From Armatimonadota bacterium (lineage in GTDB: Bacteria; Armatimonadota; Fimbriimonadia; Fimbriimonadales; Fimbriimonadaceae), in assembly GCA_018268355.1 (NCBI GenBank), contig JAFDWR010000006.1:1-43008 (forward strand): a stretch of 43,008 nt of DNA, given 5' to 3'. The first letter of the stretch is position 1; the number at the start of each line of letters is the position of its first letter. Under the pieces are notes generated by a model, which searched no databases, was not told where the DNA came from, and was given only the letters and a program-made list of their open reading frames with translations. The position numbers and the translations under genes were made by a program. This document shows positions 12,001 to 31,646 of this stretch, piece by piece.

Positions 12001-13804
12001 CCTTGCCTCGAGCTCGGCGCTGCCCGACATCCTCACCCGAGGATTCAGCAACCCGTTCACGCTGCAAACCTACGTCATGGGCAACGCCCTTTCCGCAGAC
12101 GTGAGCGGTTCGGATCCGTTCTTGATCCCGAACACGGCGCGGCCTTGGGTCAGCCAGATCAGCCGACTCCGCGTTCGCGGAACCGACGTCGAAGGCAACC
12201 CGGACGTCCGATGGCCGCAATATGTTGGCCTCGAATCGTTCGAGAACTTTGTCCAGCGACTGTTCCAGACCGTCATCGGTAGCCCGAGCAGCGGCTACTC
12301 GAGGCGCGATGCCGCGATCTTCGGTGGCGACAAGGCCCTCGTGATCGCCGGTGGAACTACCAACGCAGGCGGCGTCTTCACCGGCTCGCAGTTCGGTGCG
12401 TTCTCTCGCGCTGACCTCCTGGTCGCCGATCAGGGCCGCGTGGGCCGATTCGACCCTGCGGGTAACCCGATCTGGAGCACGGATTCAACCGAGAACTTCG
12501 GCACCGTCGACGTCAATGGCTCGTCGAGAGCCCAAGACCTCGTCCGACCGACCCGTGCGTACATCGCTTCGCCGTCGGATATCGTGGTCGTGGACAGCGG
12601 CGCAAGCCGAGTCATCCGATTCGACCAGTCGGGACGCGAGACTCGCTCGATCAAGAACTTCCGCGTGGACGACAACTTCGTTCCCGATGGATTCAAGGGT
12701 GGCGACCCGACCTCGCTGTCGTCGCCGTCCGATGTCTCGTTCTTTGGCGAGTTCGTGATCCAGGCCAACAACCTTTTCACGGGTGCCCAGCCGGTTGAGT
12801 ATTGGGCCCACTACGTGGTCGCAGATGCTGGAAATCGACGCATCGTCGACATCGTGGACCGTTATTCGGTGGACGCGAACCGACGCATCTCGGACCCGAT
12901 CCAGCTTGGCACGCTCTTCTGGCACTCGCCGAGCCTCTATTCGGGCAAGAACTTCCAGTACACGTCAATCACGCGACTGAAGGTCGATCCGCTCAACGCG
13001 GCCTCGCCCTACTACTACGTGGCGGGAATTGGATCGGCGATGCCGACCCGAACCGACGCGGGACTCGATTCGCCGGCCCTCAACGGCCAGCGACAGACGG
13101 AAGGTGGCAATGGCGGCATCGTCATCCTCAATCCGTTCAACCCCGCAGCCAACATCGTGATCAACGAGGTGCTCGTCCCCGCCATCGGTGCTAACGCCCT
13201 TTGGAACGAGGACACCGCGACCTTCAGCTCGCCCGCCTATGCGGCGCAGCAGAAGAAGCTGAGCACGCTCTACTCGGTCACCGCTCGTACCGAAGGCAAC
13301 GCACCCGCGATCATGTTCACGGATGCAACCGGAATTTACGAAATGGTGCAAAACGCCGGGGTCTGGACGGTGCGATGGATGCTGCCCAACTCCGTCTATC
13401 GAGTGATGCGAGGCATTCGCAACACGTACGATACGACGCTTTCTGCTCCGTTCAACACGCCGGGTGTCCCGTCGACGAGTAACGCTGCTGATCTCAACGC
13501 AGTCTATGCTCGCCGACTCGACTCGGGTGAGGTCATCGTGGTGAATGCCTACAACGGCACCACCCGTGGCATCCGACAGGCCAACGGAACGTTCCTGGGC
13601 CGCGTCGCTCTGCCGGGAGAGATCCTGCAGATCGATGGCTTTATCGACCCGCTTGCGGTTGACCCGGCGAACCCGAACCGCAACTACGGATTCTCGTTCC
13701 TAAAGACGAACCTTGGATTTGGACGTCTAAGCATTCGCTATGAACTGCCGCCGATCTCGGGAGCTCGCGGCATTCTCCAACCCATTTTTGCCGATCGAAG
13801 GTGA
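9005..13804 (+). CDS. Giant secreted beta-propeller-type protein (PilY1 position)
   Basis: 1599-aa exported protein with a signal peptide (residues 1-21, cleavage after A-Q-A). Residues 136-172 (Y-D-V-L-L-V-P-A-Y-R, then E-K-L-R-R-F-V-D-S-G-G-V-L-W-V-D) resemble the class I glutamine-amidotransferase-like fold seen in DUF4159-type proteins, without an evident catalytic Cys. From about residue 370, propeller-type repeats appear (R-G-L-L-V-V-S-T-G-N-T-V-R-V-Y-D) with a calcium-type loop at 395-404 (D-L-D-G-D-G-N-A-D-D). NHL-like repeats lie at about 1138-1290 (L-L-V-A-D-Q-G-R-V-G-R-F-D; I-V-V-V-D-S-G-A-S-R-V-I-R-F-D). It starts at TAATG after the PilX-like gene, as pilY1 follows pilX in Pseudomonas. 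PilY1 also has a C-terminal propeller with a calcium loop, but direct homology is not evident by eye; a tip-adhesin role is inference. Confidence 0.75.
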   Translation: MLRRLFSWTIALTALSVGAQAQNGYAQRTQEIRAGIVVLEGSRVNNNAANPPANDTPFVWLNCDQNTAAKPAGWKFFNPNAPGVATQAIVTRWSAINTLIGSPNPGPTLGESVTKRMAAYWEVNLTTATDQQIADYDVLLVPAYRNTSLNPAEREKLRRFVDSGGVLWVDFNVSNSTAIDQSNNFPVPFLAQNGGGLENSFDQFHPLVSFPNPISITSIRSFASDGNQGTIGNVTFAGLGGIGALNMPLPEESLRLQSVAATAAGPTISVAQSGDGFVVVTARGYAQTLNNLQNTSRVVVNNYGYRANGGSFTRTQDALVKFVVNLVSLPTGSPQISQGAHKQSSSAVDVSAPLLKRFDTDVIPGGVPQGSIYRGLLVVSTGNTVRVYDANPSSDLDGDGNADDGTPDYAGGSAMDLIWESSALPGPISSPTCTEVANPAGVPKDQILVVDGNGRLVAFDAFPTNANGQLQAGPIAPAYVVAPPSAPAGVDPIVNAPLPPTVQDGVVFVADQIPPPGFGSTNVGRVWLADPRLGTDISSGGRFQVGSGVLPTFSNSVTVGYIPIADNSGGLDRVVYGPGVANGTSYQSATLVSLWLGAKGENPPPSALSVVTVGPNSYLSVQTRASRQGLPIRIPASLGAGSHLGVKLSIIDQNGDPWTSAQMASAFDGTVVQATPGELRFGLTGPLPTLPSGQIAVGVRVDYTIDWGGILPALQGQVVRGTLSMPDDFNLQASDRRRFIGSLALSPRGTIYAVQSTAARNFAGGFINPSQTGGSFYAIREEGRGNFRVLNRYDLYPPHTVQLSGGATASYSATFEDNDELTQIPQAAILAGQFQNLTFTGGPAIRNGTVYVTAMGNKGNIPFIPYTILMAFRGEGESPNIRLSSFPDGSSIVQPDFIQSAGGNKRTPNRYSTLTPSQYTWDQTQSVLTINSLANVTRGQITGAISTSQPVILKSPNGAPDQIFYPDANNSNWNPLLWYVVLHGDASRTAPFVTGNTVFLASSSALPDILTRGFSNPFTLQTYVMGNALSADVSGSDPFLIPNTARPWVSQISRLRVRGTDVEGNPDVRWPQYVGLESFENFVQRLFQTVIGSPSSGYSRRDAAIFGGDKALVIAGGTTNAGGVFTGSQFGAFSRADLLVADQGRVGRFDPAGNPIWSTDSTENFGTVDVNGSSRAQDLVRPTRAYIASPSDIVVVDSGASRVIRFDQSGRETRSIKNFRVDDNFVPDGFKGGDPTSLSSPSDVSFFGEFVIQANNLFTGAQPVEYWAHYVVADAGNRRIVDIVDRYSVDANRRISDPIQLGTLFWHSPSLYSGKNFQYTSITRLKVDPLNAASPYYYVAGIGSAMPTRTDAGLDSPALNGQRQTEGGNGGIVILNPFNPAANIVINEVLVPAIGANALWNEDTATFSSPAYAAQQKKLSTLYSVTARTEGNAPAIMFTDATGIYEMVQNAGVWTVRWMLPNSVYRVMRGIRNTYDTTLSAPFNTPGVPSTSNAADLNAVYARRLDSGEVIVVNAYNGTTRGIRQANGTFLGRVALPGEILQIDGFIDPLAVDPANPNRNYGFSFLKTNLGFGRLSIRYELPPISGARGILQPIFADRR

Positions 13805-16800
13805 TGATTCGCATGAGGAATACCATGGCGCTACTAGCCCAACGACTCCGCCGAAACCTAACGCTAGGTCTCGGCCTGGTCGCCCTTGTCTCTGTCGCTC
13901 AGGCACAGGACTTTCCAACCCACAGCGGTAATAACCAGCGCTCGGGTACGAACGGAGATGTCCTTGGCGCCGGACCGGGCCAGGGCCTGATCTCTTGGTT
14001 CTTTCCGAATGCGGCAGAGCCGTTCCCGTCGGGAATTTTCCGCAACCAGACCTCGACCGAGGCGGTTGCCGTTCCGGGTGGAACGTGGCTGAACGCGGGT
14101 CCCCTCGTGGCGACTGGCGGTGCGGCCATCATTCCGATCAACGCCACCCCCGAGCAAGGTCCCGAGCCTGCTGGGACGGCTGAATACGTCTACACCGGCA
14201 TCGTGGCGTCGACCTTCCGCGTCGACGGCGTGGATTACGATCCGACCGTGCCGCTCGTGCCGGGTACCGCCCGCTACTTCCAGTGGACGATGACCCCGCC
14301 GGTGGCCGACCAGTTCACCCCGCGAACCTACGCCCTTTTCGTGAACGTGCCGCAAGGTCCGACCGACATTGCCCCGTCGCCGGTTAACAACCAGCGCTAC
14401 CAGGTCTATGAGGTCTTCTATGGCAACAACCGCCGATGGGTAGAGATCGTCGACACCTGGCAGAACGGCTACGTTCGCCTTGGCGCAGCCGGTCGAAACC
14501 AGCCGCTCGTCTTCCAATACAGCGGTAACCCGGCCCAGGCCATCCGCGTCCGCGTTTACAACACGATGGCCCGCGATGGGTTCAACAACCTTCTGAACGG
14601 CGATCCGAACAACCCGCAGGTCGTACCGACGGACCGCGTCGTCTATGCCGACGCCGTTTTCGCCAAGCCTTCGGTGGGTTCCTACTCGGCAGGCGCAACG
14701 GTTCGATCGAACCCGAACGTTTTGGCTGCGCTCCAGCCGATCCGAACGGTGGCTGCGTTCAACCGCGTTGCCGCCACGCAGGATGTCGACCCTCGATTTA
14801 CCAACGAGTTCATCACCGGTGAGGTGAGCAGCTACGACTACAACACCGGCAACCGCCGATGGAAGTTCTCGGCCGCGAACGCGCGAAACATCGCTATCAC
14901 GGAAGACAACACCGACGCCACCGCAAGCGCGGGATGGACGGTGACGACCACGCCTGATGACAAGATTGGCGACAACTATCTGATTTCGACCAACCCCGTC
15001 ATCGCCGACCCGAACACGGCGGAGAGCGTGAACTACGTTCCTGCCCTCGTTCCTGGCGACTACAACGTCGAGATGTTCCTGCCTGGCCCGCGCGAGAATA
15101 CGGCGATCCAGCCGTTCTGTACGCAACAGGTCGTCCGAATCCACGAGGGTGCCAGCGTCTTTGACTTCACCGTCAACGTCACCACCCAAAGCGGTTGGGT
15201 AACGATCGGAACCCGCAAGTACAAGCACGACCCGCAGAACGGTAACCCGCTCCGCGTGGAAATCCTTGCCGCTTCGCTCGATCCCCAGGACATCATCGAC
15301 CTGAAGGTGGCTTATGCGGATGCCGTCCGGTTCGTCCGGCCCGTCTATGCGGCAGTCACCGCGACGCCGGTCCAAGCAACCTGTAAGGTTCGACTTAGCC
15401 CGGCTGAAATCATTCCGCCGGAGCGCGACATCGTGCTCATCCCGGCTGAGGATGGTCGACTCTACTGCGTCGATGCCCAGGGTAATCCCGACGGCACCAC
15501 CAATCTTTACTGGACCTATCCGAGCCTTCCCGATCCGGCCAATCCGACCGCCGTCGACCCCAACCTCGACGTGCCCGCGAATGCGCCGATCGCCAATCGA
15601 CTCGATGGCGAAGATGGCGTCCTGCTCGCCCAAATGCCCCAGGGCTTTGGCCTGAGCTCGCCCGTCATCCAGCGAATCAATGGCGACGACTACGTCTTCA
15701 TCGGTTCGCGCAATGGCCGCGTCTACTGCATCGAAATGGCAGGCCGAGGCGACCAGAACTTTGGCACCGGCAAGGCGGGAACCACCCGACGACGCTGGAC
15801 CTTCCCGCAGGACTATCCGCAGCAGCGACAAAGCGCTCTCGGCCAGATCGTGGGTTCGGTCTCGTTTGCCGACGTCGGTGGACAGCCGACGCTGTTCGTC
15901 CCCGACACCAATGGTCGCGTTTGGGCGCTTGATGCCCTCGGCAACAACGTTCAACGAACGACGACCGTTCGATGGGCCTTCCCGGCTATCAACCAGCCGA
16001 CGCTTGGACCGGTCACCACGACGCCGATGGTGGCGTTCAACCCGCAGCGCGTTTACTTCGGCACCACACCGAAGGACGACACTGCCACCGGCCAGCTCTG
16101 GTGCGTGGATGCGGCGAACCCGCTCAACCTTGCTCGGCAGTGGTTCCTTAATGGCACCAACTTCCCGGGCGGCCCCGTCAACTTCGAGGCCTTCAAGGGA
16201 GGCTTTGCCGCCGGAACGGCAGCCGAGCTTGGCAGCCCGACTGACCAACTCTTCGTGGCGAACACGAACGGCAACGTCTATGCCTTCCAGCCAGACGGAA
16301 CCTTCGTGTGGCAGACCGACGAAGTCGGCGCCGGTATTGAGGCTCCGCTTTCGCTGTCGCGAGTGAGCGTCCCCGATCAAACGGGGAACCTGTATGATCG
16401 AACGCTTCTCCTCTTGGCGACCAAGAACGGCAGCTACCAAGGACTCTTTGCTGATCCCGCGACGCTCAACCTGTTTGGTGGCCGCCTCGCTTGGGGTTAC
16501 CAAGGCGACGGCATCGACCAGACGGCAGGCCTTGCCGTGGGTCGAAATTGGATGTACACCGGCGATAGCGAAGGCAACTTCTACGCCTTCGACGGAACCG
16601 GCAACCCGCAGGTGGGTGGCATTCCGCCTGGAGGTCGAATCAGCCCTCCGAACGAGCCGCCCGCACCGAACGTGAACTTCCGCAACACGATCATCAAGTT
16701 CATCACGTCGGATGCCGCTCGCCGGCTGAAGTTGGCCCCCGGTGATCCTCAGCGACTCACCTACGCCGACGTCATCACGGGCAACACCTACGACATGACT

Positions 16801-19800
16801 CGAAACCCGGCCGCGTTCGACTGGGGTGAGACGGTCCACGTGCTCGTTGGTAACTTCCCGTATGCGACCCAGACCCCGAACGGCACCGTCGTCGCTCCTC
16901 CGAGAGTTCAATACTCGTTCCGAGTCGGCGGTCGAACCCTGCGAACGCTCCAAGCGAACTCGCGACAGTTCGACACGGTGAGCGGATCGAATCCGCCCGC
17001 CTTCCGCGATGGCTTTGCGATCTTCGACTACGTGGTCCAGGGTTACGGCCAAGACGGCATCGCCGTCGGTGACGGTCGAGTGACGATCTCGATCCGAACC
17101 CAAGCGCTCAACGACAGCGGCGCAGACTCCGTCGTGGCGATCCCGCCGACGCAGAACAACCGCACGTTCGCGGTCGCCAATCCGATCGCGATCAGCACCC
17201 AGGCACTCGCCGGTGGTCCGATCACGGTGGCCAACCTCGACCCGGCTCGATCCTTCGGCCTTTCGACGAACCCGTCGGATGCTGAGAACCGAGTCAACGG
17301 CACGCCGCTCGTCGGTGCCAAGAACGGTGCCTTGCTGGCCACCTCCGCTGGTTCTTTGAACCACGGTGGATCGGCGGTCACTCCGTTCTATGTGGTCGAC
17401 CGAAGCCTCATGTCGCTGCTCCGCGGCCAGGGCCAGGGCCTCTACAACGTTCGCGCGCTTCGCGGCGAGCTTGAGTGGCAGGGCGCAGGCGCAACGGTCT
17501 TCCGACCGATCGGCGCGGCAGGCTTTGAGGACCTTCCGATTCGATTCCCGAACAACAGCCTTGACTATCCGAACTTGAGCCGAGATACGACTCGAGTCAC
17601 CAAGGATCCGAATGGCATTTCGGAGAACCCGATCTTCTCGCCGGTCACGTTGAACGCACCGCTCATTCCTGACACTAACAACCCTCAGGTCCGAACGATG
17701 GCAGTCACTCCGTTTGAGGTCGGGCTGAGCGTTCCGCGCTACCAGCCGGGCCCGGTGGGTGCTCCCGGCTTCACGGAAATCGGCGGTTCGGTGCTTCCGG
17801 GTGGATTCCTCGGTCGCTTCACGATCTTCGTCGACACCAACAGTGACGGCACGCTGAACTCGATCACGGGTCAGCCGGAAGCCCAACGCGGCTTCACCTT
17901 CACCGCGGGCGTCAACCCCGATCGACGACTCGATAACCTCACGCCGACGGTGGACTTCGGTTCGCTCGCCTCGGGCACCGGCTTCACGCCGGGCTTCCCG
18001 GGAACCGGTGCGAGCTCGTTCAACCCGCGTAACCCGGCATGGTCGAACATGTTCCGACCAGTCGTCCTGCGCAACGAGGGCAACGTTAACCTCCTGAACC
18101 TTCGACTCGCAAAGGGCACTGCCTTTGCGCCGGGTGGAGCGTTCAACCCGTGGCCGATCTTCGGTCCGGCGGTGGATGACCTTGCTTACTTGAACGGCGC
18201 GAGCTACCTGTTCAGCGACCTTGATGCCGGTTCGATCTCCAACTACACGTTGGCGGATAGCGGTCTCACCCCGGCCGGTTCGTTCTCGCTGCTCCCGAAC
18301 ACCTTTGTTCAAAAGCCGCGAATCACCGACCGCCGGGGCAACCAGGTCGTCACCAACCCGATCCGACGCGCCAACCCGGCGATCGGCATCACGGGTCGAG
18401 TGGGCAACAACCCCGACGCGCTGATCCCGACGCTCGATGGAACCGGCAACCTCCTGTTCCAGCCGAATGCACCGCGAATCGGTATGGCCGTTCCATTCGG
18501 ATTCCCGTCGGGCAGCTATCAACAGGCGATTCGGTTCATCGAAGACGACCTCGCGACTAACTCGGCGATGGACCTGAACAACCTCGGCGATTCGCTCGAG
18601 CCGTTCAGCGATCCGGCAACGACGATCAAGGCCAAGGTTCGAGAGACTCGTCTCACCACGAGCACGACCTTCCAGCCGCGACGCTCGCCGTCCGACCCGC
18701 TCCTGCCGATGACCGGCCGAATGGTCGATAACTTCGACCCCACGTCGATCTACATGTACAACAACCAGCAGCCCTCGGGCTACCGATTGTTGAACGGCAC
18801 GATGCTCGTCACGTGGACCTCGAACCGACCGACGGATAGCGCGGCAACGCCGACGAACCCGAGTCAGCGCGACGATTGGCGCATCTACCTTGCCACGCTC
18901 GGCGGTACCACGCCGAACGCAGCCGGTGGATTCACCCCGCTTCGCGACCTCGACGCATGGGTGCCGGGTGGAACGCAGTTCTTCCAGAAGAGCGCGCAGA
19001 CCGCAGCTGGATTCCCCGACCTCACGGGCGGCGCGAATGCAGTGCTGTACAACGTCCAGCCGGGTGAAACCGTCATCGACGAAACGCGGCAGTTCGGTTC
19101 GCCGGTCTTCCCGCTCCAGGGCGAAGCCTATTCGGCCGCGTCCTCGACGGGCCCATACATGGCGTTCATCGGATCGGTCCAGAAGCAGGCCCAGAGCGGT
19201 CGCCAGATCGAGACGCGAATCTACATCTCCAGGGCCACGGTGGCTCCGGGCGGTGTGACGCTCTCGGCTCCGGTTCCGAACAACTTCGACGTCCAGAGCG
19301 GCAAGGGTCGCCTTGCGATGGTCCAAGACGGCGACATCGCCACCGTGTTCTACGCAAGGAACGCGGCGGGTGGATCGCGACTGTACTGGACTCAGTTCAA
19401 TGGCGCAACCTGGACCGAGCCCAAGCCGGTGGACACTCCCGACGGATTCGAGTCGGTCGCTTCGCCCAGCATGACCCTCCGACGCTACTTCGGCACCGGA
19501 ACGATCGCTGGCGCGCAGAACAGCGGCTACCTCGACCTTATGGATGTGGTCTTTACGGGCCGCCTGACGGGCCGTGCGGTCGCCGAGACCTATCTCATGC
19601 GACTGGGTACCGGTGGCGCGAATGTCAGCTCGCCCGTGGAAACGGTCTGGCTGAACCAGATCATCCAAGAGCCTCTGGCTGATGGTGGCGAGCGTGGCGT
19701 GTTCCGAAGCCAAGGTCTCCGATGGAATCGATCGGCTTCCTTGAACACCGGATTCAACACGGCCAACCACCTCGTGCTCGAGCAGTTCGTGGGTGGCGCT

Positions 19801-20703
19801 GTCCAGAACCTGGAAGTGCCCGGGACCCGCGTGAATGAACGCGGAACTGGCATCGTCAGCTTCGACTGCGTCCTCGGCGGCAAGGTCTACATTGACCCGA
19901 GCCAAGGAAGCGTTCGATTCTCGACCGCACGACCGGCGCGCAATTCGTCGATCCTGCTCAGCTACCAGCCGAGCGTGATCCGCATCAGCGACTCCGACGC
20001 GGCCGCCTATTCGGCCTCGACCGTGCTGTTCGACAACCGACTGACCAGCATCACACCTAACTCGCTCGACCTTGCCGGCGGCAAGACGAACCAGGACTAC
20101 TGGTTCCGACCGAGCGGCGCGTTCGCCGTAGTGGGTGATCCGATCCGAAACGACCGGTTCCACTTCTTCTACACGCGATCGGCTTCGGGTAACGGACAAT
20201 CGGCACGGCCCTATGTCAAGACCGCTCGATTCGGCGTCCAGCTGCCGAGCGCGATCTTCACGAACGCTTCGGGTGCTCTCCTGACTCCCGGAAACGTCTC
20301 GACCCTCACCGTGGCAGGCACCCCGGCCAACGACTTCTATCAAGTCGATCCGGCCCGAGGTCGCATCTACTTCACGCGTGGCGCAGAAGACAGCATCGTG
20401 ACGGTCACGTACCGTGGCCAGACGAATAACGGTGGCTTCACCGCTCCGATCGTGCTCCAACTCCGCGTTGGACTGATCACCGAGCGCGAAGAGGCTCCGG
20501 TTCCGATGGACCAGGCCAGCAACGAGTCGCAGATCTCGGCGTTCATCGATCCGTTCGACCGTCCGGACGCCCAGGCGGGTAACCCGAACGTTCGTCGACC
20601 GTCGCTCATCTGGACCCTTTGGACGAGCACGCGCACCGGTAATACGGACATCTTTGTCCAGACCCTGGCGCCGATGTTCAGCCCGCGAGCAGGCAGCCGC
20701 TAA
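13804..20703 (+). CDS. Giant secreted protein with golvesin-like and PQQ-like propeller domains
   Basis: About 2299-aa exported protein, last gene of the pilus operon. A signal peptide ends A-Q-A before Q-D-F. ATG 13804 overlaps the previous stop (TGATG). ATG 13825, preceded by GAGGA at about five bases, is an equally good start, and GTG 13801 is also possible. Two regions (about 166-296 and 368-516) resemble golvesin/xanthan-lyase C-terminal-like domains, each ending in the typical Y-A-D-A-V strand. At least six PQQ-type propeller blades span about 540-940 (D-G-R-L-Y-C-V-D; N-G-R-V-Y-C-I-E; N-G-R-V-W-A-L-D; G-Q-L-W-C-V-D; N-G-N-V-Y-A-F; E-G-N-F-Y-A-F-D). The rest is beta-rich, with a D-T-N-S-D-G-T-L-N loop near 1342 and repeated Y-x-V-D-x-x-x-G-x-I-x-F motifs near 2029 and 2179. 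Probably a cell-surface or pilus-tip protein; its ligand is unknown. Confidence 0.78.
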   Translation: MIRMRNTMALLAQRLRRNLTLGLGLVALVSVAQAQDFPTHSGNNQRSGTNGDVLGAGPGQGLISWFFPNAAEPFPSGIFRNQTSTEAVAVPGGTWLNAGPLVATGGAAIIPINATPEQGPEPAGTAEYVYTGIVASTFRVDGVDYDPTVPLVPGTARYFQWTMTPPVADQFTPRTYALFVNVPQGPTDIAPSPVNNQRYQVYEVFYGNNRRWVEIVDTWQNGYVRLGAAGRNQPLVFQYSGNPAQAIRVRVYNTMARDGFNNLLNGDPNNPQVVPTDRVVYADAVFAKPSVGSYSAGATVRSNPNVLAALQPIRTVAAFNRVAATQDVDPRFTNEFITGEVSSYDYNTGNRRWKFSAANARNIAITEDNTDATASAGWTVTTTPDDKIGDNYLISTNPVIADPNTAESVNYVPALVPGDYNVEMFLPGPRENTAIQPFCTQQVVRIHEGASVFDFTVNVTTQSGWVTIGTRKYKHDPQNGNPLRVEILAASLDPQDIIDLKVAYADAVRFVRPVYAAVTATPVQATCKVRLSPAEIIPPERDIVLIPAEDGRLYCVDAQGNPDGTTNLYWTYPSLPDPANPTAVDPNLDVPANAPIANRLDGEDGVLLAQMPQGFGLSSPVIQRINGDDYVFIGSRNGRVYCIEMAGRGDQNFGTGKAGTTRRRWTFPQDYPQQRQSALGQIVGSVSFADVGGQPTLFVPDTNGRVWALDALGNNVQRTTTVRWAFPAINQPTLGPVTTTPMVAFNPQRVYFGTTPKDDTATGQLWCVDAANPLNLARQWFLNGTNFPGGPVNFEAFKGGFAAGTAAELGSPTDQLFVANTNGNVYAFQPDGTFVWQTDEVGAGIEAPLSLSRVSVPDQTGNLYDRTLLLLATKNGSYQGLFADPATLNLFGGRLAWGYQGDGIDQTAGLAVGRNWMYTGDSEGNFYAFDGTGNPQVGGIPPGGRISPPNEPPAPNVNFRNTIIKFITSDAARRLKLAPGDPQRLTYADVITGNTYDMTRNPAAFDWGETVHVLVGNFPYATQTPNGTVVAPPRVQYSFRVGGRTLRTLQANSRQFDTVSGSNPPAFRDGFAIFDYVVQGYGQDGIAVGDGRVTISIRTQALNDSGADSVVAIPPTQNNRTFAVANPIAISTQALAGGPITVANLDPARSFGLSTNPSDAENRVNGTPLVGAKNGALLATSAGSLNHGGSAVTPFYVVDRSLMSLLRGQGQGLYNVRALRGELEWQGAGATVFRPIGAAGFEDLPIRFPNNSLDYPNLSRDTTRVTKDPNGISENPIFSPVTLNAPLIPDTNNPQVRTMAVTPFEVGLSVPRYQPGPVGAPGFTEIGGSVLPGGFLGRFTIFVDTNSDGTLNSITGQPEAQRGFTFTAGVNPDRRLDNLTPTVDFGSLASGTGFTPGFPGTGASSFNPRNPAWSNMFRPVVLRNEGNVNLLNLRLAKGTAFAPGGAFNPWPIFGPAVDDLAYLNGASYLFSDLDAGSISNYTLADSGLTPAGSFSLLPNTFVQKPRITDRRGNQVVTNPIRRANPAIGITGRVGNNPDALIPTLDGTGNLLFQPNAPRIGMAVPFGFPSGSYQQAIRFIEDDLATNSAMDLNNLGDSLEPFSDPATTIKAKVRETRLTTSTTFQPRRSPSDPLLPMTGRMVDNFDPTSIYMYNNQQPSGYRLLNGTMLVTWTSNRPTDSAATPTNPSQRDDWRIYLATLGGTTPNAAGGFTPLRDLDAWVPGGTQFFQKSAQTAAGFPDLTGGANAVLYNVQPGETVIDETRQFGSPVFPLQGEAYSAASSTGPYMAFIGSVQKQAQSGRQIETRIYISRATVAPGGVTLSAPVPNNFDVQSGKGRLAMVQDGDIATVFYARNAAGGSRLYWTQFNGATWTEPKPVDTPDGFESVASPSMTLRRYFGTGTIAGAQNSGYLDLMDVVFTGRLTGRAVAETYLMRLGTGGANVSSPVETVWLNQIIQEPLADGGERGVFRSQGLRWNRSASLNTGFNTANHLVLEQFVGGAVQNLEVPGTRVNERGTGIVSFDCVLGGKVYIDPSQGSVRFSTARPARNSSILLSYQPSVIRISDSDAAAYSASTVLFDNRLTSITPNSLDLAGGKTNQDYWFRPSGAFAVVGDPIRNDRFHFFYTRSASGNGQSARPYVKTARFGVQLPSAIFTNASGALLTPGNVSTLTVAGTPANDFYQVDPARGRIYFTRGAEDSIVTVTYRGQTNNGGFTAPIVLQLRVGLITEREEAPVPMDQASNESQISAFIDPFDRPDAQAGNPNVRRPSLIWTLWTSTRTGNTDIFVQTLAPMFSPRAGSR

Positions 20704-25387: not shown

Positions 25388-27028
25388 ATGCGAAAAATCT
25401 GGGCAATGCTCGCAATGACGGCGGTCGTGGGAATGGTCGCGCTGGGAACCCCCAGCGTGGCCCAAACCACGGACCCCGCCGCTCAGGTGCGAATCGATCT
25501 TAATCTGAAGGATGCGGACCTGATCGCGGCCACCAAGGCCGTGACCGCACAAACGGGAATTCAGTTCGTCTTCGAAGGAAGCAACGAACCGTTCAATCGG
25601 GTCACGCTCTCGCTGAATGGTGTGAGCGCAGAAGACGCCATCACCTACATCTGCCAGGCCGCAGGTGCTTATTGCCGAAAGGACGTGAACGGTGTTTACG
25701 TCATCTCGCGCACCAAGCCTGTGATCAACAATGGCGGAGTGGTGACGGGTCCGAGCGTCGCTCCTCGCCGCAACAACATCATGAAGAAGTTCAAGCTGAT
25801 GCACACCAGTGCAGAAGCTGTGTATCAGAAGATCATGGGATCGCTGATCACCTTCGAAGATGATGGCGGCGCGATCAAGCGACTCATGCAGTTCACGAAC
25901 CACATGACCGATGCCGAGCGGTATCGATCGACCGGTGTTCTGAACCCGCAGTCCCTTCTTCAGCAGGTCCAGCCTCAGGCCGTTCCGGTCTCGGGCGGCC
26001 AACTCACCGGACGCGACACGGGCAACAACATCGCTCTCCCGGGCGACAGCGGTAACCAGTTCGCGGGCGGCGGTGGCCTCCAGGGTGCTGGCGGTGGTGG
26101 TCTCCAAGGCGGCGGCGCCGGTGGTGGTCTCCAAGGCGGTGGTGCAGGTGGTCTTCAGGGCGGCGCGACTCTTCGCGGTGGCCAGGGCCTCGTTCCTTCG
26201 TCCATCGACTTCATCAGCTACGATCCGACCGACAACAGCCTCCTCGTCCGAGGAACCAGCGAAGAAGATATCGCTGAGCTCCAGAAGGCGATTGGTCTGT
26301 TCGATAAGGCTCCGAAGCAGGTGACGGTCAAGGTCGAATTCATCACGACCTCGGACAGCATCAGCTCCAACATCGGTTACGACTGGCTTTATCAGCGCGG
26401 TCCGCTCCAGATGGGTAACACCCCTGGTAGCTTTACGACCTCGTCCAACCCGATCTTCATCAACTACGCGACGGGCAACCTGTCGACTCGAGTCCGAGCC
26501 GCTCTCCGAGAAGGCAAGGGTCGAATCGTCACCGCTCCCGTGCTGCGAACGCTGAACAACCAGCCGGCAACGGTCACCTTCAGCTTCATCACCTACGTGT
26601 TCTTCCCGATCATCACCCCTAACGGTCTGGCCGGCTCGATCATCACGTACAACTCGCAGCAGCTGAACATCGGAACCTTCTTGACCCTTTCGCCTCGTAT
26701 CAACGAGGACGGCACCATCGTGATGTTCATCAACACGCAGGTTGCCAACCCCGCAGGCACCGCTGCTTCGCCGGACGGCCGACTGGTCTTCCCGAACATC
26801 TCGCAGCAGCAGGTCTCGGTGGTCGCTCGAGTCAAGAACGGCGAAACGATTGCTCTCGGTGGTCTCACCACGAAGAACGACGAAGTCACGGTGAACAAGT
26901 TCCCCGTCCTCGGTGATCTCCCGGTCATCGGTCAGTTCTTCCGAAGCACCACCAAGGCCAAGTCCACCTCCGATCTCATCATCTTCGTCACCCCCACGGT
27001 GATCGAGGACGACGATACGGGCGGCTAG
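25388..27028 (+). CDS. pilQ: Type IV pilus outer-membrane secretin PilQ
   Basis: Multimeric outer-membrane channel through which the pilus passes. 546 aa. The signal peptide ends S-V-A at about residue 25. An STN-like domain (33-110: L-N-L-K-D-A-D-L-I-A-A-T, then V-T-L-S-L-N-G-V-S-A-E-D-A) and an N1-type domain (about 128-225) come first, then a Gly/Leu/Gln linker (about 227-259). An N-domain strand set (Y-D-P-T-D-N-S-L-L-V-R-G) and the secretin domain (about 315-540) follow, closing with F-P-V-L-G-D-L-P-V-I-G-Q-F-F-R-S, the family signature. PilQ is often 600-750 aa with AMIN domains; these are missing. GGAGG and GGAAGGA precede the ATG. Last gene of the cluster, followed by a terminator. 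Confidence 0.93.
   Translation: MRKIWAMLAMTAVVGMVALGTPSVAQTTDPAAQVRIDLNLKDADLIAATKAVTAQTGIQFVFEGSNEPFNRVTLSLNGVSAEDAITYICQAAGAYCRKDVNGVYVISRTKPVINNGGVVTGPSVAPRRNNIMKKFKLMHTSAEAVYQKIMGSLITFEDDGGAIKRLMQFTNHMTDAERYRSTGVLNPQSLLQQVQPQAVPVSGGQLTGRDTGNNIALPGDSGNQFAGGGGLQGAGGGGLQGGGAGGGLQGGGAGGLQGGATLRGGQGLVPSSIDFISYDPTDNSLLVRGTSEEDIAELQKAIGLFDKAPKQVTVKVEFITTSDSISSNIGYDWLYQRGPLQMGNTPGSFTTSSNPIFINYATGNLSTRVRAALREGKGRIVTAPVLRTLNNQPATVTFSFITYVFFPIITPNGLAGSIITYNSQQLNIGTFLTLSPRINEDGTIVMFINTQVANPAGTAASPDGRLVFPNISQQQVSVVARVKNGETIALGGLTTKNDEVTVNKFPVLGDLPVIGQFFRSTTKAKSTSDLIIFVTPTVIEDDDTGG
26066..26164 (+). repeat. Gly-rich G-G-G-L-Q-G repeat inside pilQ
   Basis: About four imperfect units coding Gly-Gly-Leu-Gln-Gly with Gly/Ala spacers, placed between the N-domains and the secretin pore domain. 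It probably acts as a flexible linker. It belongs to the same Gly-rich style as the other proteins of this cluster. Confidence 0.8.
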
Positions 27029-27050: not shown

Positions 27051-27092
27051 AAGTGGCGACGGAGATAAACTCCCGTCGCCACTTTCCTTTTT
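27051..27092 (+). terminator. Intrinsic terminator after pilQ
   Basis: Perfect 12-bp stem AAGTGGCGACGG (27051-27062) pairing with 27073-27084, a ten-base loop, then TCC and TTTTT (27088-27092). It lies between pilQ and aroK and separates the pilus cluster from the metabolic operon. Confidence 0.88.
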
Positions 27093-27109
27093 GCGGGACA
27101 CTAGGCAAG

Positions 27110-27628
27110 ATGACAAAGTCGTGGATTCTGGTCGGGATGATGGGGGCAGGGAAGTCCGCCGTTGGGCGAGCCCTCGCCGAAGCATCCGGACGCGAGTTCA
27201 TCGACACCGACCAGATTCTCCAAGGTCGGTTCGGACGCTCCATCAGCCAGTTCTTTGCCATCTATGGCGAAGAGGCTTTCCGAGGCCACGAAACGAGCGT
27301 GCTGAAGTCGCTCGAACCTGGCCATAACGTGATCAGCACTGGCGGCGGCATCGTCACAAGGCAAGAGAACTGGGAAGAGTTCGCCCGCCTCGGCACCACG
27401 ATCTACCTCGAATCTTCGCCCGAAGTCCTCATCAACCGGCTCGCGCTTTCGAAGAAAAAGCGTCCCCTCCTCGCGGTCGACAACTGGGAAGACAAGCTCA
27501 GCTCGCTCCTCGACACGCGCCGCGAGCTTTACGAACAAGCCGATCTTCGTTACTCGGTCGACGGGAACGACATCCAAGCCGCCGCCGAAGGCATCATCCA
27601 ACTCCTGGAGCAGCGCGATGCGACTTGA
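27110..27628 (+). CDS. aroK: Shikimate kinase
   Basis: Cytosolic enzyme phosphorylating shikimate at the 3-hydroxyl with ATP, fifth step of the chorismate pathway. 172 aa, normal length. Walker A G-M-M-G-A-G-K-S (9-16), the D-T-D substrate motif (32-34), R58, the S-T-G-G-G motif (77-80) and the lid with K-K-R-P-L-L all present. ATG 27110 is chosen because the open frame upstream runs through the pilQ terminator. Only a weak AGG precedes the start. Overlaps aroB by 11 bases, so the two consecutive chorismate enzymes are coupled. Confidence 0.95.
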   Translation: MTKSWILVGMMGAGKSAVGRALAEASGREFIDTDQILQGRFGRSISQFFAIYGEEAFRGHETSVLKSLEPGHNVISTGGGIVTRQENWEEFARLGTTIYLESSPEVLINRLALSKKKRPLLAVDNWEDKLSSLLDTRRELYEQADLRYSVDGNDIQAAAEGIIQLLEQRDAT

Positions 27629-28592
27629 GGTTCGCCAGGCCTCCCGAACGACCACCGTCGAGCTGGGCGAGGCAAAACCGGCCGATGGCATCGTGCTCAT
27701 CGACTCCCGCGTCGCCGAACTCTATCCCGATCTTGCCCGCGGCGCAATCATCGTCCCGCGCGGCGAACGGTCAAAGTCGCTGCGCCAATTCGGACGGCTC
27801 CATGCCGAGCTCGTCGCCAAAGGCGCGAACCGAAAGAGCCAACTGATCGCCATCGGCGGCGGGGTTGTCGGCGACCTTGTCGGTTTTGTTGCCGCCACCT
27901 ACATGCGCGGCATCGCCTACGAGTCCGTTCCCACCACCCTCCTCGCGATGGTCGATTCCAGCGTCGGCGGAAAGGTCGCGATCGACCTCCCCGAAGGCAA
28001 GAACCTCGTGGGCAGCTTTTGGCCCCCGACGCGGGTCACCATCCAGCCCCAGTTTCTGAGCACCCTGCCACCACGCCAGGTCCGCAATGGCCTCGCCGAG
28101 GTGCTCAAGATGGGCTTCATCCGCGATCCCTTTCTAGCCGAACCAAGGCCGGTCACTGCCGAACTGATCTTCCGGGCCATCAAGAACAAACAGGAGGTCG
28201 TCGAAGCCGACGAGTTCGAGACCCTGGGGATCCGGGCAATCCTCAACTTTGGCCACACCATCGGCCATGCGATCGAAGCCGTTCTCGGCTACCGGGGCTT
28301 GCTCCATGGCGAGGCGGTCGCGGTTGGCATGGCGGCGGAGGCCAAACTCGGCGAGACGCTCGGCATCACCGAGCCCGGAACCGCTGCCGAAGTGGGCCGT
28401 ATCCTGCATCAAGCGGGACTCCCCACAAGCCACCTCCTCCTTAGCGATCCGGAACGGCTGATCGACCGAATGCGTTCGGATAAAAAAGCCGAAGGCAACG
28501 GGTTGGCATTTAGCCTCTTGAATCGAATCGGCGAATGTAAACTACAAACGGGTATCCGCGAGTCCGACGTGGTCCGTGCATTGAGAGACTGA
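27618..28592 (+). CDS. aroB: 3-Dehydroquinate synthase
   Basis: NAD- and metal-dependent cyclase making 3-dehydroquinate from DAHP, second step of the chorismate pathway. 324 aa, a little shorter than the usual 350-370. NAD motif G-G-G-V-V-G-D (80-86), the V-P-T-T-L-L-A-M-V-D-S-S-V-G-G-K signature (104-119), and likely metal ligands E161, H213 (N-F-G-H-T) and H230 (L-H-G-E-A). GGAG (27607-27610) gives the start at seven bases. Its TGA overlaps the next ATG by one base. Confidence 0.95.
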   Translation: MRLEVRQASRTTTVELGEAKPADGIVLIDSRVAELYPDLARGAIIVPRGERSKSLRQFGRLHAELVAKGANRKSQLIAIGGGVVGDLVGFVAATYMRGIAYESVPTTLLAMVDSSVGGKVAIDLPEGKNLVGSFWPPTRVTIQPQFLSTLPPRQVRNGLAEVLKMGFIRDPFLAEPRPVTAELIFRAIKNKQEVVEADEFETLGIRAILNFGHTIGHAIEAVLGYRGLLHGEAVAVGMAAEAKLGETLGITEPGTAAEVGRILHQAGLPTSHLLLSDPERLIDRMRSDKKAEGNGLAFSLLNRIGECKLQTGIRESDVVRALRD

Positions 28593-28798
28593 TGAGCAAA
28601 ATTCGCCAAGGAATGATCACCCTCTGCTTCGTGCTCCTCGGTGCAGGATTCCTTGGTGGATTGATCACGGGCAAAAACGGCCAAGGCCCGATGTGGTCGG
28701 CGAAGATGGACCAAGCGCCGATTCGGATGCTCGCGCTGTTCCTCATCGTCCTCGCCGTCCTCTTTGCCTTCCTTCCCGAGAAGGAGTCGAAGCCTTGA
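28592..28798 (+). CDS. Small membrane protein, two predicted helices
   Basis: 68-aa hypothetical protein starting at TGATG with aroB's stop. Hydrophobic segments at about residues 8-26 and 44-61, with a short polar loop between. No family recognised. It ends four bases into the pseudokinase gene, so it is translated in the same operon. The fixed location before an envelope sensor could mean a small partner of it, but that is speculation. Confidence 0.7.
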   Translation: MSKIRQGMITLCFVLLGAGFLGGLITGKNGQGPMWSAKMDQAPIRMLALFLIVLAVLFAFLPEKESKP

Positions 28799-30702
28799 TC
28801 GGTCGCGTCCTGCGCATCCGCTATGAGGTGCTCGCCGAGCACGACGAAACGTCGCCCATCTTTGACTCCTACCTGGGGCGAGACCGGGTCCAGGCCCGCG
28901 ACGTCGCCCTGCGCGTCTTCAAGCCCAACCTCACTGAAGTGCCCGCGATGGCCTCGCGGCTCCAATCGGTGATTCACAAGTTTCAGCCCGCGCGGTCCTC
29001 GCAAATCGAATCGATGTTCGCGGTCGAAGAAGACGAGGGGACCTACTTCCTCGTCTCCGACCTCTCGAAGGGAATCAGCCTGACCCGAAGGGTGAAGCAG
29101 TTGGCTCCCTTTAGCGCCCCTGTGGTCGTAGGGACCGCGGTCAGCCTTGCTGAGGCTCTCGACCCGATCCACCAACTCGGCCTCGCCCACGGCGACCTGA
29201 ACGGCAACAACGTCATCGTCCAGCTGGACAACTCGGTTCGCGTTATCCTCCCCGGCATCTGGGAGATCTATTCAGCCTCATCCACGGCGGGCGTCCTCGT
29301 ACTGCCGAGCATGTCGCCCTACCTCGCGCCCGAGGTGAGCCTTGGCGGCCTCCCGAATCCAACGTCGGACGTCTACAGCGTCGGCGTGCTCATGTTCGAG
29401 CTCCTTTCGGCAAAGCTACCGTTCCAGGCCGACAACCCGGTGACGATGGCGATCCGACACCAGAATTCGGCGGTGCCGAGCGTGCGGATGTACAACCCTG
29501 GCGTCCCGATGGTGCTCGACGAGATCATCAAGAAGTGCCTGGTCAAGGACCCCGCCAAGCGATACGGCAACGCCTCGGACCTTCTGCAAGACCTGCGGAT
29601 GGTCCAAGATGCCCTGCGGTTTGGAAAGACCCTGACGTGGCCACTGCGGGTCGAGCCGGTGGGCCAGATCGCCGAACCCGCAGAGCCAAAAGAGCCCGTG
29701 GTGGGGAACGTCGCTCCCGCGATGGGTGCGGCAAGACCCGAGCCGGAGGAGAAGCCGGCCAAGAAGACGAGGGAGCGTATTGCGGGCGACGTCCCGGTTT
29801 GGCTGATGGTCATGACCGCGTTTGTCGCCGCGATTGCTCTGACGATGCTCGGCATGTGGTTCTGGCAGTTCAGCGGCAAGGCCAAATCGGTGCGCGTGCC
29901 GAAGGTAAAGGGCCTGAAACTCGCCGAAGCAGGACGGCTCCTGCGCGAAACCGGCCTCCAGATGAAGCTCATTGGCACGGTCCCGTCGAAGGGCGTGCCA
30001 GCCGACGTCGTCATGGACCAACAGCCCGGCCCCGACATGCGGGTGGGCGAGGGTTCGGTGATCTACGTGAAGAAGAGCCCCGGCGCGGACTCGGTCCAGA
30101 TGCCCAAGATCATCGGCATGAAGGTCAACCAAGCGCGGGACTACCTTGCCCAAGCCGACCTGCGGCTCGACGAGAACACGGAGAAGGTGAATTACCCCGG
30201 CGTCGTGGATGGAGCGATCATCGACCAGGATCCCAAGCCGTTCAAGATGGTGCAGAAAGGGACCCGGATCAAGGTGCGGGTTCAGGATTCTGGAACCAAC
30301 GCAACCGGCACCCTGCGGGCAGATGACGCCCGGATCGCGAGCACCTACAACCTGAACATTCGCCTTCGAGGCATCAGTGAGCCGGTCATGGTCCGCGTGG
30401 TCATGCTCGACGCCCTCGGCCAGCGCGAGCTGTACAACAAGCAGGGCAAGCCCGAGGAGCAGGTTCAGATTTCGGCCACGGGCTACGGCGGCGAGGTCTA
30501 CTTCGAGGTCTATTACAACGACACGCGCGTTTATCGACAGCGCCAGGTCGCGCCGAAGGATGCGACCCGGGTGCCAACCGATGACGGTGGTGGCGGTGGC
30601 AATGACAATGGCAACGGAGATGGCGGCTCCCCGGGCGAGCCCGACGGTGCGCGGGCGAACAATCCGGGTGCCAACCTTGCGCCAACCCCAGGAGATATGT
30701 AA
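28795..30702 (+). CDS. PASTA-domain serine/threonine kinase-like protein, probable pseudokinase
   Basis: 635-aa membrane protein with the PknB/PrkC layout: kinase-like domain (1-280), juxtamembrane linker, one transmembrane helix (about 334-356), two PASTA domains (365-428 and 433-497) and a C-terminal beta domain with a Gly/Asn tail. TTG 28795 has AAGGAG (28781-28786) eight bases upstream and overlaps the previous stop. The glycine-rich loop is not recognisable. The VAxK lysine is Arg (V-A-L-R, R40). HRD reads H132-G-D134. DFG is replaced by L-P-G near 152-154. The A-P-E (178-180) and S-D-V-Y-S-x-G (191-197) motifs remain, so the fold is intact while ATP/Mg binding residues are lost. PASTA domains bind muropeptides or lipid II in the family. 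Probably an envelope sensor or scaffold rather than an active kinase. Confidence 0.87.
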   Translation: MIGRVLRIRYEVLAEHDETSPIFDSYLGRDRVQARDVALRVFKPNLTEVPAMASRLQSVIHKFQPARSSQIESMFAVEEDEGTYFLVSDLSKGISLTRRVKQLAPFSAPVVVGTAVSLAEALDPIHQLGLAHGDLNGNNVIVQLDNSVRVILPGIWEIYSASSTAGVLVLPSMSPYLAPEVSLGGLPNPTSDVYSVGVLMFELLSAKLPFQADNPVTMAIRHQNSAVPSVRMYNPGVPMVLDEIIKKCLVKDPAKRYGNASDLLQDLRMVQDALRFGKTLTWPLRVEPVGQIAEPAEPKEPVVGNVAPAMGAARPEPEEKPAKKTRERIAGDVPVWLMVMTAFVAAIALTMLGMWFWQFSGKAKSVRVPKVKGLKLAEAGRLLRETGLQMKLIGTVPSKGVPADVVMDQQPGPDMRVGEGSVIYVKKSPGADSVQMPKIIGMKVNQARDYLAQADLRLDENTEKVNYPGVVDGAIIDQDPKPFKMVQKGTRIKVRVQDSGTNATGTLRADDARIASTYNLNIRLRGISEPVMVRVVMLDALGQRELYNKQGKPEEQVQISATGYGGEVYFEVYYNDTRVYRQRQVAPKDATRVPTDDGGGGGNDNGNGDGGSPGEPDGARANNPGANLAPTPGDM

Positions 30703-30708
30703 CCCGGC

Positions 30709-31353
30709 ATGAAGTGTGAAATCGCCCCCTCCGTTTTGTCCTTTCCCCACGGCGAAATCCAGCCGCGGGTGGCCGAGCTCGTCGCCGCCGGAGCATCACT
30801 CATTCACCTCGATGTCATGGACGGCCAGTTTGTCCCTCCGATCACCTTCGGCGATGGACTTGCCGCGAGTCTAAGGTCGATCCCGGGCATTCGGCTCGAA
30901 GCCCACTTGATGACGGTGACGCCGGATCGTCACTTCGAGGCGTTCGTGAAGTCAGGCTGCTTCCGCGTGATCTTCCATGCCGAGGCGACCGCCCACTCCC
31001 ACCGTTTGATCCAAACCCTCCACGGAATGGGCGTCCAGGCGGGTATCGCGATCAACCCGGGGACTTCGGTCGCGGCGGTTCGTGAGGTGTTGCACCTCGC
31101 CGACCACTGCCTGATCATGACCGTCAACCCCGGTTGGGGCGGCCAAGCGATGATCCGTGAAGCGCTCGACAAGGTGCGGAAGGTTCGCGCGATGCGCCCA
31201 GACATCGAGATCCAGGTGGACGGCGGGATCGACGCGACCACCCTGCCCCTCGCGAGAGAAGCGGGAGCAAACCTCTTTGTGGTTGGCAGCCACCTGCTTG
31301 CCTACAATAGCCTCGCGGAAGCCGCCCAGACGCTGAACAAGCTCTGCCAATGA
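30709..31353 (+). CDS. rpe: Ribulose-phosphate 3-epimerase
   Basis: Pentose-phosphate enzyme that interconverts ribulose-5-P and xylulose-5-P. 214 aa TIM barrel of normal size. Metal and acid residues are in place: H33 and D35 (H-L-D-V-M-D-G), H66 (E-A-H-L-M), D171 (Q-V-D-G-G-I). M-T-V-N-P-G-W-G-G-Q is the phosphate-loop signature with Trp in place of the usual Phe. CAGGAG lies about 15 bases upstream, inside the end of the pseudokinase gene. A PASTA kinase next to rpe is also found in Firmicutes (prkC-rsgA-rpe). Confidence 0.95.
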   Translation: MKCEIAPSVLSFPHGEIQPRVAELVAAGASLIHLDVMDGQFVPPITFGDGLAASLRSIPGIRLEAHLMTVTPDRHFEAFVKSGCFRVIFHAEATAHSHRLIQTLHGMGVQAGIAINPGTSVAAVREVLHLADHCLIMTVNPGWGGQAMIREALDKVRKVRAMRPDIEIQVDGGIDATTLPLAREAGANLFVVGSHLLAYNSLAEAAQTLNKLCQ

Positions 31354-31646
31354 AGACCTTTACGCTTGGCCTGATGATCTTTTGCGTGGCGATGGTGATT
31401 GGCCAAGGCTCGATCGTCGGCCCCAAGCCCGCCGACAGCGCATCGAAGCTCGTCCACAAGGCTTACGCGCTGAAGTTTTTCACGTACGGGTTCACCCTTG
31501 GCCTCGCGGTGGTGGTGCTGATGGTTTGTGGCTTGATCCTGCTCCGAAAGGCGCGCGAGGACTACCGGGTTGAGAAGTTACGGCTGATGCAAGACCTCGT
31601 TGAGGGCAGCCTCCAAGACCACGCGAAGAAGGGCGACGATGAATGA
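31350..31646 (+). CDS. Small membrane protein with two helices
   Basis: 98-aa hypothetical protein. It begins in the rpe stop (ATGA overlap) and its end overlaps ribD by eight bases. Hydrophobic segments at about residues 4-23 and 46-67, then a charged cytoplasmic tail of about 30 residues. No family recognised. Codon use matches its neighbours, and coupling on both sides supports it as real. Confidence 0.75.
   Translation: MKTFTLGLMIFCVAMVIGQGSIVGPKPADSASKLVHKAYALKFFTYGFTLGLAVVVLMVCGLILLRKAREDYRVEKLRLMQDLVEGSLQDHAKKGDDE

Follow-up and report, generated by a model that had tools for sequence, protein, structure and literature searches.

The central finding in the window (the whole 43,008-nucleotide stretch that was analysed) is a gene for a membrane-anchored PASTA protein with a pseudokinase domain, and we consider it probable that this protein is a wall-binding receptor whose cytoplasmic domain serves as a protein-binding platform. 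We favour binding over enzyme activity because the catalytic residues are lost, selection is strong across the family, and the genome has no other PASTA kinase. PASTA kinases are regarded as sensors that couple the state of the cell wall to phosphorylation; a lineage with the sensor architecture, and without the enzyme or an active PASTA kinase, separates wall binding from catalysis and turns the role of a PASTA receptor lacking phosphorylation into a testable question.

Structurally, the coding sequence (28795-30702; this and all features below are on the forward strand) specifies 635 aa in a frame that is open from 28693 and reaches its stop at 30702. Translation probably begins at the TTG at 28795: AAGGAG lies 8 nt 5' of this codon, which overlaps the stop codon of the small ORF before it in the shared letters TTGA, and in most orthologues the equivalent site also holds a start codon. 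In a Pfam scan Pkinase (70 bits) and PASTA (twice) exceeded the cut-off; only kinase and PASTA families were matched, and no SPOR domain. The pseudokinase domain (residues 1-276, 28795-29622) is followed by a single transmembrane helix predicted from hydropathy (about residues 333-355, 29791-29859), two PASTA domains placed by profile matches (29890-30072 and 30094-30282), a modelled C-terminal beta-sandwich domain (30334-30549) and a low-complexity Gly/Asn/Asp tail that the alignment shows to be mostly missing from orthologues (30571-30699). This kinase-helix-PASTA order, in which the repeats would be extracytoplasmic, is that of the PASTA kinases PrkC (Bacillus subtilis), Stk1 (Staphylococcus aureus), PknB (Mycobacterium tuberculosis) and StkP (Streptococcus pneumoniae). 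The ectodomain model comprises the two PASTA domains and the beta-sandwich at a mean pLDDT of 77 with low-confidence ends, and its pTM of 0.43 makes the relative arrangement of domains unreliable. For this model and for the beta-sandwich the best Foldseek match was 3py9, the entire ectodomain of S. aureus PrkC, which suggests that the C-terminal domain resembles the end domain of that protein. Judging from the families to which they belong, the two PASTA domains and the C-terminal domain would bind peptidoglycan or its precursors outside the membrane.

Motif positions were set by alignment to PrkC and solved kinases (marker sequences of B. subtilis PrkC, PrpC and RsgA were used solely for alignment, tree outgroup and synteny), and conservation was counted in 53 proteins, that is, the window's protein and relatives nearly all from one family (probably Fimbriimonadaceae). 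At the glycine-loop position stands DETSPIFDSY, without a Gly (28843-28872); the VAIK Lys is replaced by R40 in VALR (28912-28914; Arg in 49/53, Lys in 3/53, Gly in 1/53), the alpha-C Glu by V59 (28969-28971; Glu in 0/53), and DFG by L152-P153-G154 (29248-29256; Asp in 0/53). Just past the DFG position lies a new Trp, W156 (29260-29262), which is present in 52/53 proteins and corresponds to Ala in every canonical paralogue aligned; F276-G277 are further new near-invariant residues. The APE motif (A178-P179-E180, 29326-29334) and the F-helix Asp (D192, 29368-29370) are kept. The sequence-only reading had described this same pattern, with Arg for the VAxK Lys, L-P-G for DFG, no glycine loop (DETSPIFDS in the alignment), and A-P-E, the F-helix Asp, the membrane helix and two PASTA domains retained, and alignment, hydropathy and Pfam bear it out. 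It had also called the HRD motif degraded, which holds for the Arg, whose loss is common to all of clade B (defined below), but not for the catalytic Asp: in H132-G133-D134 (29188-29196) Asp134 is kept in 50/53 proteins, and HGD is common to relatives that have the full Lys/Asp/Asp triad. Gly133 of this motif is constant (36/36). Of the three residues expected of an active PASTA kinase (Lys, HRD Asp and DFG Asp), the protein thus has R40, D134 and L152. Conserved loss among homologues, which the sequence-only reading had proposed to look for, is what these counts document, and with the DFG Asp and the alpha-C Glu both at 0/53 the loss is not due to chance.

The fold itself appears intact. An AlphaFold2 model of the domain (pLDDT 95) has the Hanks-type kinase fold, with Z scores of 31-34 to PknA and PknB, and its best matches among solved structures are PknA, PknB and Stk1, while the PDB entries nearest in sequence are StkP and Stk1; the MviN structure was absent among the 50 matches listed in the structure comparison, which does not speak against a resemblance. 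It could be objected that the alignment misplaces the motifs and that a functional Lys and a metal-binding Asp are to be found at other positions, and WNK kinases, whose catalytic Lys is displaced, offer a precedent. We find this barely credible: the model aligns with PknB over its full length (Z 31) and has a mean pLDDT of at least 90 around the motifs, and the 53 proteins contain no Lys conserved in at least 70% within residues 1-246 and no conserved Asp or Glu between 135 and 179, hence none of the displaced substitutes that the sequence-only reading had itself named as counting against it. With the Lys, alpha-C Glu, glycine loop and DFG Asp conservedly lost, the cytoplasmic domain would keep the kinase fold and be incapable of ordinary ATP/Mg phosphotransfer.

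The pseudokinase domain is also better conserved than the other domains in the 53-protein set, with a mean pairwise identity within the family of 45% versus 35-38% for the PASTA domains and 30% for the C-terminal domain. For the three pairs with the least divergence, the only ones used because values saturated beyond them, its dN/dS came to 0.05, 0.02 and 0.15, near that of the PASTA domains. The domain evolves under purifying selection, and loss conserved in orthologues together with a domain under selection is what characterises a pseudokinase. A decaying gene heading for loss could be suspected, given that catalytic residues were lost repeatedly in clade B and that some families no longer have the kinase domain; relatives of the protein, however, occur in 50/50 good-quality related genomes, nearly all of them free of stops, the dN/dS values lie at 0.02-0.15, new invariant residues have appeared, and synteny extends across the phylum, all of which makes decay a very improbable account. 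One orthologue from the same family (L050, G030:C287) sits in an open frame roughly double the usual size, at 1219 aa.

Functionally, the HGD Asp (50/53) and Asn139 (34/53) are kept more widely than a pure scaffold obviously needs, and the domain could be an unorthodox enzyme that still transfers a group via Asp134, through metal-independent phosphorylation, AMPylation or similar. The Lys, alpha-C Glu, glycine loop and DFG Asp are nevertheless gone with no conserved replacement, and Asp134 itself is missing in three members. Kinase folds can, moreover, retain the HRD Asp and the F-helix Asp for structural reasons, which may apply here. Kinase folds with altered motifs and other activities do exist, as in SidJ and SelO (PMC12599244); weighing both sides, we hold an enzyme of this kind to be quite improbable here. 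Counting against the scaffold that we favour, three family members (L024, L026 and L032) have a Lys at the VAIK position.

Among known bacterial pseudokinases, a close parallel is MviN (ActPs3), a membrane protein linked to peptidoglycan with a non-catalytic kinase-fold domain, as is proposed here; MviN is phosphorylated by PknB and recruits FhaA, and its motifs read VALT, Lsidhpsr and Y-- (PMC12599244). Unlike MviN, the window's domain keeps HGD and is fused to PASTA, and membership in ActPs3/MviN was rejected because HGD and VALR stand here against Lsidhpsr and VALT in the family description (PMC12599244). The GLW pseudokinases, which are mainly proteobacterial, have GLW in place of HRD (PMC12599244); that family was rejected as well under its definition, with HGD in 50/53 and Gly133 in 36/36, and the GxW of the window's protein lies instead at the DFG region, with HRD changed to HGD. 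A 2025 review distinguishes seven bacterial pseudokinase families and describes none as PASTA-bearing, the word PASTA occurring in it only within a reference title (PMC12599244), and we found no account of PASTA pseudokinases in Armatimonadota in the open-licence literature.

Evolutionarily, PASTA is present in 278/291 genomes of the phylum, very probably Armatimonadota, and the kinase motifs, read in representatives of most families (the window's family is labelled f1), are of two kinds, a canonical A (GEGGMA, VAIK, RREA, HRD, DFG) and a B with HGD, to which the window's protein belongs. In a tree of kinase domains B occupied one side of a branch with 99% SH-aLRT, or 98% after removal of B's long branches. 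The Lys/Asp/Asp triad is complete in 34/68 members of B, with 11 changes on the tree, and in 22/22 members of A, unlike in the window's protein; A's figure is partly true by definition, since labels were assigned by motif ahead of tree-building, whereas B's single origin is an independent result. B probably began, as far as its motifs tell, as an HGD kinase that then lost catalytic residues repeatedly, and the sister family f5 has Arg for the Lys with DFG kept. The retention of DFG in f5 and of the triad in half of clade B likewise counts against the scaffold that we favour. As part of that reading, the pseudokinase would probably have arisen through duplication of a PASTA Ser/Thr kinase. The A kinases sit in families other than the window's and away from the aro locus; at the sole locus checked (L267) the gene comes after those for an FtsW/RodA protein and a transpeptidase, a setting parallel to the actinobacterial cluster rodA-pbpA-pknB. 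Two oddities were seen in passing: a locus of family f42 (L266, G258:C13) has several canonical kinase ORFs in tandem within 12 kb, and at L099 (G260:C194) a 24599-aa open frame surrounds a PASTA kinase, which unread or masked bases might explain.

The genome of the window contains two PASTA matches, both inside the ORF 28795-30702, as do most genomes of its family. A search for an active PASTA kinase elsewhere, also proposed by the sequence-only reading, thus came back empty, with no second PASTA protein in an assembly that is 97.7% complete, so that a missing gene is conceivable. Three further Pkinase genes are present, one of which (G000:C1:1121596-1123173) encodes Lys, HRD, DFG and a membrane helix without PASTA; homologues of this kinase turned up in 41/41 genomes searched. 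The genome also encodes a PrpC-like PP2C phosphatase, away from the pseudokinase gene. Given this active-looking kinase and the phosphatase, Ser/Thr phosphorylation probably persists in the host, but not via a PASTA kinase. The pseudokinase would then stand in the place of the canonical PASTA kinase of other families. The claim of the sequence-only reading that a PASTA kinase relative with conserved catalytic loss acts by binding is well supported at the level of sequence, by the family-wide loss, the lack of a substitute Lys or Asp, purifying selection and the absence of another PASTA kinase in the genome; the reading overall is supported in part.

The gene lies in a conserved cluster, recognised by Pfam and synteny, of pilQ (secretin, 25388-27028), aroK (27053-27628) and aroB (27618-28592) upstream and rpe (30709-31353) downstream, and the window also encodes pilM in the upstream part. 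The order pilQ-aroK-aroB-[PASTA protein]-rpe-ribD, or its visible part, recurs in most families of clade B, although no aro or rpe neighbours of B were found in f6, f17, f18, f29 and f30. Firmicutes, by comparison, have prpC-prkC-rsgA-rpe (fetched loci), and paralogue A has rodA-pbpA-kinase. In E. coli K-12 the order is hofMNOPQ-aroK-aroB-damX-dam-rpe, such that damX, like the window's gene, has a pilMNOPQ-like cluster and aroB before it and rpe after it. DamX is a membrane protein that binds peptidoglycan through its SPOR domain and stimulates PBP1A/1B (PMC7642682). The window's protein has no SPOR domain, and we claim no homology. From the aro, prk and damX loci compared, wall-binding membrane proteins therefore appear upstream of rpe in three phyla, and we take this shared position by analogy as a lead to a wall or division function.

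Between aroB and the pseudokinase gene lies an ORF for a 68-aa protein (28592-28798) with two membrane segments predicted by hydropathy and no Pfam family above cut-off, which starts within the aroB stop and ends 4 nt inside the pseudokinase gene, and would hence be translationally coupled to both; the sequence-only reading had not listed it. Its consensus is GYlASq...yaa.vD.ppv..LaL. Across 56 loci of the window's family and order, a two-TM ORF was present at 50 and a one-TM ORF at 6, with the same 4-nt overlap at 52; the ORF was chosen by a hydropathy criterion with a shuffle control, in which shuffled intergenic DNA yielded two TM segments in 2/1120 cases. Other clade B families have comparable small ORFs. 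This protein would be a natural candidate partner of the pseudokinase.

The strongest rival to a binding platform places the work of the gene in the membrane helix, PASTA domains and C-terminal domain, DamX-like, and regards the pseudokinase domain as a folded remnant or a minor dimerisation module. It draws on the phylum-wide trend, which marks the ectodomain as what the protein cannot do without: in the A-bearing families f40, f41, f42 and f45 the aro locus encodes a PASTA protein of 262-334 codons that lacks a kinase domain and has a membrane helix, two PASTA domains and a C-terminal domain, and in f42, f43 and f44 there are proteins of 514-553 aa, of which three gave no Pfam kinase match and one has a remnant. 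The occupation of the E. coli K-12 aroB-rpe slot by a wall-binding SPOR protein fits as well (PMC7642682). What weighs most against this rival is conservation, since no part of the protein is better conserved here than the pseudokinase domain, which has low dN/dS and family-specific invariant residues; in addition, families without a kinase domain at the locus carry a canonical kinase elsewhere, and the window's genome does not, total absence of the kinase domain at the aro locus being seen only in A-bearing families (which are not independent of one another). We therefore consider an ectodomain-only role unlikely. PASTA-only membrane proteins, for which no aro neighbours were found, also occur in f20-f23 (L281, L282, L283 and L285).

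Returning to the wall-binding receptor with a binding platform, we posit that the pseudokinase relays cell-wall information to partner proteins by scaffolding; candidate partners are the two-TM protein that would be co-translated with it and the conserved Ser/Thr kinase that has a membrane helix but no PASTA. More tentatively, and with some doubt on our part, the locus may trace one PASTA family across the phylum from an intact-looking kinase domain through a selected pseudokinase to its absence, with a wall role of the ectodomain that is independent of phosphorylation, and with pseudokinase and two-TM protein forming here a phosphorylation-free wall-sensing complex in place of a PASTA kinase.

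Two other ORFs of the window were noted. Upstream of the pilM cluster, a 2300-aa ORF (13801-20703) has only sub-threshold beta-propeller and golvesin-like matches, and between rpe and ribD a 98-aa ORF (31350-31646), with no Pfam family above cut-off, encodes two hydrophobic stretches and recurs in part of the family.
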